Shown here piece by piece: positions 31,301 through 33,843 of a stretch of 64,000 bases of DNA; position 1 is the stretch's first letter; each line of letters begins with the position of its first letter. The DNA is from Maritimibacter sp. (GTDB lineage Bacteria; Pseudomonadota; Alphaproteobacteria; Rhodobacterales; Rhodobacteraceae), in NCBI GenBank assembly GCA_011389895.1, contig JAABTN010000001.1, forward strand, positions 62,001 to 126,000, read 5' to 3'. The notes under the pieces were generated by a model. That model saw nothing but the letters and a program-made list of their open reading frames with translations, was not told where the DNA came from and searched no databases. The position numbers and the translations under genes are program-made.

Positions 31301-32305
31301 GTGTCGCTGCGTCAGATCATCGTAACCTCGCCCGCCTCGACCTTGCCCTACCTGGTGCAGGCGATCGAGGCCGTGGGATGTATCGAATGCCGGGTCCTGA
31401 CCGCTGGAGAGGACGGTAAAGCGGTGCTTCTCGTGTTGGCCAACGACGACAACCGGCAGGCGCTTTTGGACCGGATGCAGGCGGTGTTCGGCCCGGAAAA
31501 CGACGGGGAATGGCGCATCACGCTGCTGCCCGTTGAGGCGACGATCCCGCGGGCCGAGGCGGAACCCGAGGCGCGGCGCGAAGTGGCGTCGACCGGGCTC
31601 ACCCGCGAAGAGATCTACACATCGGTGTGGAAGAACGCGCGGGTGGATCGCAATTACATCGTGTTCGTCGTGCTCTCGACGGTGGTTGCGGCTTTCGGGA
31701 TGCTGGCCAACAACGTGGCGGTCGTGGTGGGCGCCATGGTGATCGCGCCGCTGTTGGGGCCGAACCTCGCCTTGGCGGTCGGCGTGGCGCTTGGCGACGG
31801 GGCGCTCATGCGCCGGGCGCTGGTGACGAACCTTGCGGGCGTCGCGGTGGTCTTGGGCCTGTCCGGCGTGATCGGCGTACTGGCAGAGCCGGTATTCACC
31901 GCCGGGGAGCTCATGAGCCGGTCCGAGGTGGGCTTTGACGGGATGGCCATTGCGCTGGCCTCCGGCGCGGCGGCTGCGTTGTCGCTTGTCACCGGCATCT
32001 CGTCGGCGCTGGTGGGCGTGATGGTGGCCGTTGCGCTGTTGCCGCCGACCGCCGCGATCGGGTTGTTCGCGGGCTTCGCGCGCCCGGACCTCGTCATGGG
32101 GGCGGCGACGCTTCTGGCAGTCAACGTGGTCTGTGTGAACCTTGCCGCACAGGTCGTGATGATGACGCGCGGGATCACACCGCGCACGTTTTATGAGAAG
32201 AAAAGCGCGGCGAGAGCGCGGTGGATTTCGGCCGGGGTGTCCGTCACGCTCCTCATCGCGCTTGGCGCGCTGGTGTGGTGGCGGCTCATTCAACCGGCCG
32301 GGTGA
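31301..32305 (+). CDS. DUF389 / TIGR00341 family membrane protein
   Basis: A 334-residue protein with an N-terminal cytosolic domain (about 1-110) and a membrane domain of about seven helices (NNVAVVVGAMVIAPLLGPN and GISSALVGVMVAVALLPPTA are the typical conserved segments). Function is unknown; a transport role has been suggested for the family. The start is GTG. The stop overlaps the convergent LuxR-type gene by 16 bases. It is divergent from suhB. Confidence 0.85.
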   Translation: MSLRQIIVTSPASTLPYLVQAIEAVGCIECRVLTAGEDGKAVLLVLANDDNRQALLDRMQAVFGPENDGEWRITLLPVEATIPRAEAEPEARREVASTGLTREEIYTSVWKNARVDRNYIVFVVLSTVVAAFGMLANNVAVVVGAMVIAPLLGPNLALAVGVALGDGALMRRALVTNLAGVAVVLGLSGVIGVLAEPVFTAGELMSRSEVGFDGMAIALASGAAAALSLVTGISSALVGVMVAVALLPPTAAIGLFAGFARPDLVMGAATLLAVNVVCVNLAAQVVMMTRGITPRTFYEKKSAARARWISAGVSVTLLIALGALVWWRLIQPAG

Positions 32306-32814
32306 GGGGGCTCGTTTTCGCCCGAGAGCAACTCTTCCATGAAGACCGAGAAAAGCTGCGCGCGGCTTTCGACGCCGGCCTTGGTGTAGATCGCGGTGCA
32401 CTGGGCGCGCACGGTCCCCGGTGCGGTGCCCCGGATGCGCGCGATGTCATCGTTGTCGATGCCCTTGAGCACCATGAGCGCCACGTCGCGCTCAGACGGG
32501 GTGAGGTGCCAGTCGGTGAAAAATGCGTCGATGACCTCGGCCATGTCGCCACGGGCCGCTTGGCTCACGGTTTCCAGCGTGGCCATGCGGGCCAGAACGC
32601 GGCGCAATTCGATCATCAGGAACACAATGCCGCCGACCAACGCGACCGCAGCGACCGCTTCGAGCCACATGTGGACATCGTCCAGCGCGCCGTCGATCGC
32701 GAGGTCCGCAACCACATCGGCGACAAAGAACGCAGCCGTAACCGCCTGGAGCAGGATAACGGCGGCCAGAAGGACCGCCCGCCGTTCATGGGGTGTGCCG
32801 TTGAGGCCTGTCAC
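32290..32814 (-). CDS. Membrane-anchored LuxR-type transcriptional regulator
   Basis: A 174-residue protein with two membrane helices (about 13-36 and 50-69) and a C-terminal LuxR/GerE helix-turn-helix (about 103-160: LTPSERDVALMVLKGIDNDDIARIRG, then TVRAQCTAIYTKAGVESRAQL). There is no receiver or autoinducer domain. The GTG start, one base after the stop of the cytochrome b561 gene, has a strong ribosome site (AAGGAG), so it is translationally coupled to it. A membrane-bound regulator that reads the redox state or a partner of the cytochrome b is a reasonable inference. Targets are unknown. Confidence 0.83.
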   Translation of the reverse strand: MTGLNGTPHERRAVLLAAVILLQAVTAAFFVADVVADLAIDGALDDVHMWLEAVAAVALVGGIVFLMIELRRVLARMATLETVSQAARGDMAEVIDAFFTDWHLTPSERDVALMVLKGIDNDDIARIRGTAPGTVRAQCTAIYTKAGVESRAQLFSVFMEELLSGENEPPHPAG

Positions 32815-32815
32815 C

Positions 32816-33388
32816 TTAGCGCTCCTTAACCTTGGGCTTTTTGCCATGAAACATGGCGGGGACCAAGGGACGACGCGTGACAAGCGTGTCGAGGACCACG
32901 CCTGCCAAGTGCAGACCGATGGAGATCAAAAGCCAAGTGAACAATCCTTCGTGTAGCTCTTCAACCCAGTCGTAGCCGAAGAAACGCACGGTTCCCATCA
33001 TGTATCCCGTGATCCCCATTCCGATCACCGTGGCCCAGAGGTTGTAGGCCATGAGAGCCCCGGCGGGGTTGTGTGACAGGTGGCTCTGGTGCCTGCCCGA
33101 GAGATGCGACGCGAGATAGCGGATCGCCGCGACCGGGTTGGGCGGGAAGGCCCTAAACCGCGCGTGTTCGGTGCCGATCAGTCCCCAGAGGAGCCGCACG
33201 AGCACAAGACCGACCGCCGCATATCCGATGACTTCGTGCATGAGGCTTTCATCTTCGACCACGGTCGCATTGAGCACGATCGCCAAGGCGAGGCTCCAGT
33301 GGACGAGCCGCACCAAAGGATCCCAGACCCGAACGGTGGCGGCTTGGGGCGGCTTGGCAGCCGCCCCGGAGATCCCTGCCTCAGTCAT
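32816..33388 (-). CDS. Cytochrome b561-type membrane protein
   Basis: A 190-residue di-haem cytochrome b with four membrane helices. Likely haem-ligand histidines are in LVHWSLALAIVLN, DESLMHEVIGYAAV, and DWVEELHEGLF and SIGLHLAGVVLDT. The start VRVWDPLVRLVHW is the classic N-terminus of the bacterial b561 (Ni/Fe-hydrogenase cytochrome b-like) family. It moves electrons between the quinone pool and a periplasmic partner. Its start overlaps the PepSY gene stop by eight bases, and its stop lies one base before the LuxR start, forming a tight three-gene operon. Confidence 0.9.
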   Translation of the reverse strand: MTEAGISGAAAKPPQAATVRVWDPLVRLVHWSLALAIVLNATVVEDESLMHEVIGYAAVGLVLVRLLWGLIGTEHARFRAFPPNPVAAIRYLASHLSGRHQSHLSHNPAGALMAYNLWATVIGMGITGYMMGTVRFFGYDWVEELHEGLFTWLLISIGLHLAGVVLDTLVTRRPLVPAMFHGKKPKVKER

Positions 33389-33674
33389 CGGTGCCGACCC
33401 GGGTCACTGCGCCGGTCGCGGTATTCACATAGACCTCGGCCATGAAGCGGTCCTTGACCACGTAAGCTTCGATCTTGCCATACTCCATGTCGATCTTGCG
33501 CACGTCATAGCCAAGCGACGTGAGCGCGGTGCGGATCGCGTCGGGGTCTTTGCCGAGCAGGGTGCCAATGGTGAGATCGACGGGGGCGTTGGCCATGGAA
33601 TAATTGTCGTCGTCCGAGGCGAAGGCCGGGCTGGTCATGGCGAGAGTGGCGAGGATCAAGAGAGATTTACGCAT
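33381..33674 (-). CDS. Periplasmic PepSY-domain protein
   Basis: A 97-residue secreted protein. Residues 1-19 form a Sec signal ending SPAFA. The remainder is one PepSY domain (IRTALTSLGYDVRKIDMEYGKIEAYVVK then AEVYVNTATGAVTRV). Single PepSY domains commonly partner with b-type cytochromes in other bacteria, as here. It is the first gene of the operon with cytochrome b561 and the membrane LuxR regulator. Confidence 0.87.
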   Translation of the reverse strand: MRKSLLILATLAMTSPAFASDDDNYSMANAPVDLTIGTLLGKDPDAIRTALTSLGYDVRKIDMEYGKIEAYVVKDRFMAEVYVNTATGAVTRVGTDD

Positions 33675-33843
33675 GGTGTATCCTTTCAGGTTGGTGCAGG
33701 GCGGAATGCCTGCTGGTGCGATAAACCTGAGAGGCTTCGGGGGGTGGCGCCATTGGAGCGGGGTTTAGGATGCGGGTCATAAGCGGGTGCTTATGTACGA
33801 TGGGCAAACCCGCGGTGCCAAGATTGGAAGGGCCGCGACCCGG

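Follow-up and report, generated by a model that had tools for sequence, protein, structure and literature searches.

A PepSY, cytochrome b561 and LuxR gene unit in Maritimibacter as a possible autoregulated envelope-response operon

In a 64,000-nucleotide stretch of the Maritimibacter sp. contig JAABTN010000001.1 (positions 62,001 to 126,000; the whole stretch is here called the window), genes for a PepSY protein, a cytochrome b561 and a LuxR-type regulator without a receiver domain follow one another on the minus strand as one unit. What does such a unit sense, and what does it control? An initial annotation had postulated a redox-to-transcription relay, in which the periplasmic part or the haem protein signals to the anchored regulator. 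Part of this idea stands: the unit is conserved, and its LuxR protein, in which no receiver domain was found, has a predicted membrane anchor. That redox state or haem is the signal is conjectural, and the exact core of the candidate operator is nearly limited to the unit's own operon in five genomes. Judged from sequence, the unit would be a local, autoregulated envelope-response operon, a reading held with somewhat more confidence than doubt. In this model, the LuxR protein would be a membrane-integrated one-component regulator that combines a two-helix hairpin, whose periplasmic loop is short and acidic, with a long helix and a NarL-type helix-turn-helix (HTH); a dimer of it very probably binds the inverted repeat that precedes its own operon; and the output would be the operon itself, with PepSY, b561 and at a few loci also a metal transporter of the VIT type.

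The unit and its candidate operator

The features concerned are as follows (positions within the window).

33381..33674, minus strand: gene for the PepSY_2 protein, 97 residues (open reading frame; Pfam PF13670, E 8.9e-9)
32816..33388, minus strand: gene for the cytochrome b561, 190 residues (PF01292, E 3.3e-23)
32290..32814, minus strand: gene for the receiver-less LuxR/GerE regulator, 174 residues, GTG start (PF00196, E 7.3e-8)
32617..32784, minus strand: predicted LuxR membrane hairpin with a short acidic loop, about residues 11-66 (model, hydropathy, alignment)
32347..32505, minus strand: GerE DNA-binding domain, residues 104-156, with recognition-helix Arg136 (Pfam; covariation with the operator)
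33778..33795, no strand assigned: candidate operator 104 bp upstream of the PepSY start codon, an inverted repeat of sequence CATAAGC-N4-GCTTATG
33675..33843, minus strand: control region in the intergenic space that separates PepSY from the MetR-like LysR gene (open reading frame map and upstream alignment)

All three genes were thus found, in the order given by the initial annotation, at the place that it named. Its further statement that each start codon overlaps the previous stop holds for the PepSY/b561 junction, where the overlap is 8 nt (ATGACTGA), but not for the b561/LuxR junction, where 1 nt separates the stop from the GTG start.

Among six close loci, little of the sequence 5' of PepSY can be aligned well; the exception is TAAGC-N4-GCTTA with a few bases that follow it. 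The window site reads CATAAGC-ACCC-GCTTATG on the minus strand (33778-33795), and its exact core (33780-33793) is the sole exact match in the source genome (G000; 3.08 Mb in 70 contigs, 92% complete). When up to 2 mismatches in 12 are allowed, ATAAGC-N4-GCTTAT (G-type) is present before 20 of 35 PepSY-b561-LuxR operons, against 0.2 expected from dinucleotide shuffles, and ATAAAC-N4-GTTTAT (A-type) before 23 of 52 PepSY-LuxR operons, again against 0.2 expected from shuffles. In addition, 12 b561-linked loci whose LuxR carries Lys have a shorter pattern, AACC-N2/3-GGTT, which was picked after inspecting the sequences and is exact in 4 of the 12 (0.1 expected) and within 1 mismatch in 11 (2.2 expected).

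These repeats keep to their own operons. Across five genomes the exact G-type core occurs 6 times, and all but one of these sites belong to the unit's own operon (backwards control, 11): one each in G000, G002, G004 and G773, all at the own operon, and two in G005, one of them there. Likewise, G001, G002, G004, G006, G007 and G031 each have the A-type core at their own PepSY-LuxR operon; G000 and G063 have no site, and the only additional one in these eight genomes is in G004, compared with 29 for the control. Thus the operator-like repeat is tied to its own operon, and, since the exact core is almost confined there, b561 and PepSY would be at least as much regulated output as upstream sensor. 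Furthermore, the residue in the recognition helix goes with the type of site, Arg with 19/19 G-type sites and Lys with 23/24 A-type sites (L044 and L206, whose HTH is broken or cut, and the tie L182 were left out of this count), a pairing that mostly tracks one deep tree split with few independent changes and to that extent counts against the favoured reading; L051 (Lys, A-type, b561-linked) is the clearest separate change.

A wider regulon was considered and rejected: sites with at most 1 mismatch, exact ones counted in, number 9 each in G000, G002 and G005, against 98, 90 and 76 in the control, and 15 of these 27 places (3 being the own operons) were covered, so that weaker targets may exist among the remainder. 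Among those 15, the only further site common to two genomes is the divergent fliI/flgB region (L251 and L252). This flagellar promoter region carries a conserved TTAAGCC..GGTTTAA box, which we take to resemble the CtrA-type TTAA motif, and it was not counted as a target.

The regulator and its partner proteins

GerE (PF00196) is the sole Pfam family above its cut-off in the LuxR protein (32.4 bits vs 23.5); a Pfam search found no receiver domain in it, and its N-terminal part is the predicted hairpin. Hydropathy gives two hydrophobic helices (KD-19 peaks of 2.56 and 2.31), and two such peaks are present in 61 of 62 homologues. In the AlphaFold2 model, built with 6 sequences (mean predicted local distance difference test score (pLDDT) 80.8, predicted template modelling score 0.48), residues 8-41 and 47-101 are helical with 5 non-helical residues between them, so that the first ~100 residues form a hydrophobic hairpin that continues into one long helix. 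The mean net charge of the 62 homologues is +2.1 at the N-terminus, -2.2 in the loop and +2.5 after helix 2, a pattern that fits an N-in/C-in hairpin with the short loop outside. Consequently, the protein is predicted, from sequence and model, to be membrane-anchored, with anchor and DNA-binding domain in one chain.

Ten residues are invariant in 36 LuxR sequences (Q23, F99, L104, E108, K117, G118, A125, R128, T134 and K145), and F30 and E52 are nearly so. His48 opens helix 2 and is present in 29 of 34 b561-linked copies vs 8 of 52 PepSY-only copies; the latter count led to the rejection of His48 as a universal haem ligand of this LuxR. The only cysteine of the window protein lies in the recognition helix and is unconserved, which makes a thiol switch like that of PedR unlikely here; at least 60% of the 62 homologues have a cysteine in membrane helix 1 that is absent from the window protein, and such relatives may have a switch of this kind. 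Foldseek with the LuxR model returned NarL-type HTH domains only, the best matches being FixJ, VraR, StyR and NarL at E 0.007-0.02 and none reaching E <=0.001. All 36 aligned hairpin-LuxR proteins match NCBIfam NF047608 (the LIC13292 family) at E <=0.001. The regulator is one of a family: matches at E <=1e-5, some of them HTH-only, occur in 48 of 101 related genomes, and with the family profile at E <=1e-13 the class has 23 matching genomes out of 385 and the phylum 40 out of 398, a few of these matches being HTH-only.

The PepSY protein has an N-terminus that, judged by eye, is signal-peptide-like, after which the AlphaFold2 model shows a helix and four strands (mean pLDDT per block 90-96 over residues 41-90 and under 50 over residues 1-27); Foldseek with this model gave no PepSY match. 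The b561 protein scores 82.8 bits against PF01292 (cut-off 30.1). Its His30, His51, His146 and His160 are the presumed ligands of two haems; among 69 aligned sequences His30 and His51 are kept in 69/69, His146 in 64/69 and His160 in 63/69. The sole match of the b561 profile in the PDB at E <=0.01 is the hydrogenase b subunit (4gd3/6g94, E 3.3e-6) and not CybB, a structure of which is present in the PDB. A starvation- and light-induced b561 of D. shibae (PMC4373377) was considered as a case of the same unit and is apparently not one, as no PepSY or LuxR gene stands beside it in the gene table, which may be incomplete.

Oxidative-stress roles are on record for other b561 proteins. CybB couples periplasmic superoxide to quinone via two b haems (PMC11869295), and LcoA together with a periplasmic lipocalin limits lipid peroxidation (PMC9113575). 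By analogy, the b561 could be a superoxide oxidase or a lipid-radical protector, with LuxR as its oxidative-stress switch. The presumed haem ligands, present in 32 or 33 of 33 PepSY-b561-LuxR loci, would agree with this; however, the profile's PDB match to the hydrogenase subunit rather than CybB does not, and this explanation is regarded as distinctly improbable.

Gene order and choice of regulator among relatives

The constancy of the unit was assessed in the 101 related genomes, where 64 of 84 LuxR places were compared with places of b561 and of PepSY (profile A2), the 20 weakest LuxR matches (E > 3.9e-14, mostly HTH-only) being left out. A PepSY-like gene lies upstream on the same strand within 2 kb of 53 of the 64, a count that is partly circular because the PepSY genes from which profile A2 was made were themselves neighbours of this LuxR or of b561. 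Both PepSY and b561 are upstream in 18 of the 64, and 35 of the 53 have the PepSY-like gene without b561. The independent Pfam family PF13670, searched in 61 genomes, has 14 of its 34 matches within 2.5 kb of a hairpin LuxR, and PF03413 none of its 17. Thus, PepSY is a more constant partner of the LuxR gene than b561 in relatives (53/64 vs 18/64). Within the family, a further 22 loci divide into 3 that keep the full order, 17 that have PepSY alone, 1 that has b561 alone and 1 that lacks both. Outside it, the full order is present in 7 of 38 loci, b561 alone in 9 (3 of these at ~1.5 kb) and PepSY alone in 2, so that b561 is there the commoner partner (16/38 against 9/38 for PepSY); the link to PepSY is a feature of this family above all.

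The full order is found in varied surroundings, namely next to metR/metF, bc1-complex genes, ssb with a lytic transglycosylase gene, or proS, and on plasmids, three of them named. In L047, L049 and L050 (L numbers denote loci, G numbers genomes) the unit lies 3' of the genes for bc1-complex cytochrome b and c1. In the window, the gene upstream on the same strand encodes a MetR-like LysR protein, whose 247 bits with NCBIfam MetR fall short of the cut-off of 382, and a DUF389/TIGR00341 membrane protein gene (31301-32305, plus strand) is convergent with the unit downstream. The initial annotation had named two findings that would undo its proposal, an order unique to this genome and a LuxR protein without membrane association; the order recurs in relatives and on plasmids, and model and hydropathy predict two membrane helices. 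Within G000 itself, the flanks (up to ~1.5 kb) of the other GerE genes, 8 of 10 of which were covered, contain no PepSY or b561 match.

In a tree of 62 LuxR proteins, copies cluster by context (10 label changes vs 25.0 in shuffles), and a group of 32 rows, 30 PepSY-only and 2 with neither partner, has Shimodaira-Hasegawa-like approximate likelihood ratio test (SH-aLRT) support of 89, while 30 of the 59 inner branches are open. Many PepSY-only LuxR copies sit after trpB, often with two PepSY-like genes. For the PepSY-like proteins of these trpB loci, profile comparison supports remote PepSY homology with probabilities of 97.3%, in a comparison that took in the signal peptide, and 98.2%. Some of them, at L077, L087 and other trpB loci, have long Asp/Glu-rich tails, as if cation-binding, and four trpB loci of one genus (L070, L084, L088 and L092) have 2-4 extra PepSY-like genes 3' of LuxR on the opposite strand. 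Other company of the hairpin LuxR includes a membrane protein in L179 (DUF347 by Pfam) and L194 (similar by eye), and, in L177, b561 with a small protein bearing a CxxCH haem motif.

Where PepSY and b561 occur without the hairpin LuxR, another regulator is usually at hand. An OmpR-type response regulator gene lies within 1.7 kb of b561 in 14 of 17 such loci, with a histidine kinase in 10 of those 14 by similarity and in L106 and L110 by gene clustering. In the same genomes, none of the 18 PepSY-b561 loci with LuxR has a response regulator or histidine kinase in the fetched flanks (that of L104 being short). The response-regulator contrast, 14/17 vs 0/18, gives a Fisher p of 2.9e-7, uncorrected for relatedness; G017 and G023 each have one locus of either type, and, beyond those genomes, the LuxR locus L172 has a response regulator ~3 kb away. 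The hairpin LuxR occupies the place held in many PepSY-b561 loci by a response regulator of the OmpR type, which a histidine kinase usually accompanies.

The b561 sequences are divided in a similar manner. In their tree, a branch with an SH-aLRT of 100 separates 40 sequences from 29 others, and each of the 40 has a hairpin LuxR on the same strand within ~320 bp (L104 and L239 are tagged otherwise in the set owing to overlaps). Among the 29, LuxR is close behind in L197 and L200, ~1.5 kb on in L177, L178 and L180, and in another orientation in L055, L188 and L198. Since the set was gathered largely via LuxR neighbours, and since 21 of 37 LuxR-distant b561 neighbourhoods were included and 16 were not, the cleanness of this split is partly a matter of sampling.

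Two explanations that place b561 at the centre can be weighed here. In the first, b561 senses, through the redox state of its haem or of quinone, and signals through the membrane to LuxR, which controls genes elsewhere. The abutting of b561 and LuxR in the window, the position of LuxR-side b561 on one side of a strong branch, the existence of b561 beside LuxR without PepSY (6 'BL' loci; the 9 of 38 outside the family), the retention of His48 in b561-linked copies and the placement after bc1 genes in three loci are all consistent with it. However, most relatives' copies have PepSY without b561, and the exact core is almost limited to the own operon, with no wider regulon seen among weaker sites that were partly examined; this relay is considered unlikely. 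In the second, LuxR is simply a local regulator of b561, and PepSY is a co-expressed part of the enzyme with no role in signalling. Such an arrangement would account for b561 and LuxR without PepSY in L175, L189-L191, L197 and L223, and for LuxR-only loci (11/64 among relatives and 20/38 outside the family), but not for the PepSY-like genes beside 53/64 LuxR matches, 35 of them without b561 upstream, and it is given little credence. In the favoured reading, the envelope-response operon, b561 is probably output and perhaps also input.

Several observations weigh against that reading as well. Upstream regions without a site of their own type at up to 2 mismatches make up 15 of 35 for PepSY-b561-LuxR and 29 of 52 for PepSY-LuxR operons. 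Neither partner is present at 11 of the 64 LuxR matches among relatives, 2 of which (G026 and G059) are at contig ends, or at 20 of the 38 loci outside the family, and L042, L056 and L059 keep LuxR without PepSY and b561 even though their relatives have the full set. Matches of the trpB-locus PepSY-like proteins to Pfam PepSY_2 are weak (13/26 and 8/16 members at E <=0.1), and a VIT match is missing from 149 of the 153 loci scanned.

The signal, known systems and significance

What, then, might the unit respond to? VIT proteins carry iron or manganese, and VIT genes lie directly behind the unit or behind PepSY-b561 in 4 of the 153 loci: 3' of the unit in L221, L237 and L238, and 3' of PepSY-b561 in L109, a locus of the response-regulator type (for L237, L238 and L109 the assignment is confirmed by Pfam PF01988). 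One of these, L238, is a mobilizable plasmid of Paracoccus fistulariae (NZ_CP067138.1, 7465 bp) that encodes PepSY-b561-LuxR-VIT together with replication, mobilization, toxin-antitoxin and hypothetical genes. Such neighbours are a hint of metal handling, and a minority feature. They have led to another explanation, homeostasis of iron or manganese, in which the metal would be bound by PepSY and reduced by b561 on the periplasmic side, with LuxR switching the operon on when metal is in excess and VIT or another transporter clearing the product. This would also suit a Sulfitobacter plasmid in which genes for a metal-sensing repressor and an MFS transporter are just upstream of the unit, as well as the precedents that a few members of the PepSY_TM group, FoxB among them, act as ferrisiderophore reductases (PMC13038864) and that the PepSY protein UipA binds uranium (PMC8963506). 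However, VIT is limited to the 4 loci and is not in the window, and b561 may act on other substrates; metal homeostasis in this full form is possible but rather unlikely.

Comparison with known systems helps to define what is particular to the envelope-response operon. CadC and ToxR, like this LuxR, combine a membrane anchor and a DNA-binding domain in one chain and need no phosphorylation. However, in those proteins an N-terminal OmpR-type winged helix is joined by one helix to a periplasmic sensor domain, whereas here a C-terminal GerE HTH stands behind a two-helix hairpin, with no periplasmic sensor domain. Unlike NarL-type response regulators, the LuxR protein has a hairpin where a receiver would be, none having been found, and its likeness to the LIC13292 family is confined to the linker and HTH half (positions 71-165 of 166 in NF047608), at 54 bits against a curated cut-off of 200. 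The cyanobacterial PedR is also a receiver-less LuxR-type protein that controls its own operon, but it is soluble, with a cytoplasmic thiol switch at Cys80 (PMC13421787). In LcoA-BcnA and CybB, a b561 is paired with a small partner in the periplasm or works by itself at the periplasmic face (PMC9113575, PMC11869295); here the partner is PepSY rather than a lipocalin, the unit has its own anchored regulator, and CybB is unmatched by the b561 profile.

The closest described parallel found is DbfQRS of Vibrio cholerae, where the PepSY protein DbfQ binds the sensory domain of the kinase DbfS and controls it (PMC12714742). In both systems the gene for a small, secreted PepSY protein is next to that of a membrane regulator, and some loci have two PepSY genes; they differ in that one membrane-anchored LuxR replaces kinase and response regulator here, and b561 is often added. 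The neighbourhood screen of that paper paired PepSY with kinases and response regulators only. By analogy with DbfQ and DbfS, the periplasmic PepSY might modulate LuxR through the membrane hairpin, a step for which belief and doubt are evenly balanced. The b561 would pass electrons between the quinone pool and the periplasmic face; that it feeds redox state back to LuxR, and that the stimulus is a periplasmic metal or an oxidative insult, is a tentative suggestion. Taken to its furthest form, the model would be one of phosphorylation-free signalling across the envelope, in which PepSY and a di-haem b561 contact a dimeric two-helix LuxR within the membrane, the state of b561 being read via His48 and Glu52 of helix 2, and in which one operator per genome makes the unit a self-contained homeostat that stands in for a PepSY-linked two-component system; as a whole this is speculative and improbable.

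The initial annotation knew of no described system of this composition, and none was found in the open-access literature, subscription papers having been mostly outside the search. The inverted repeat before PepSY is an addition of the present analysis. The composition of the unit suggests that periplasmic PepSY input can drive a regulator without any kinase, and it gives an orphan b561 subfamily a regulator of its own. A first idea of the signal comes from the copies linked to VIT. Its 3-4 genes, single predicted operator and putative specificity residue (Arg136 vs Lys) could make the unit a compact test bed for this mode of regulation.

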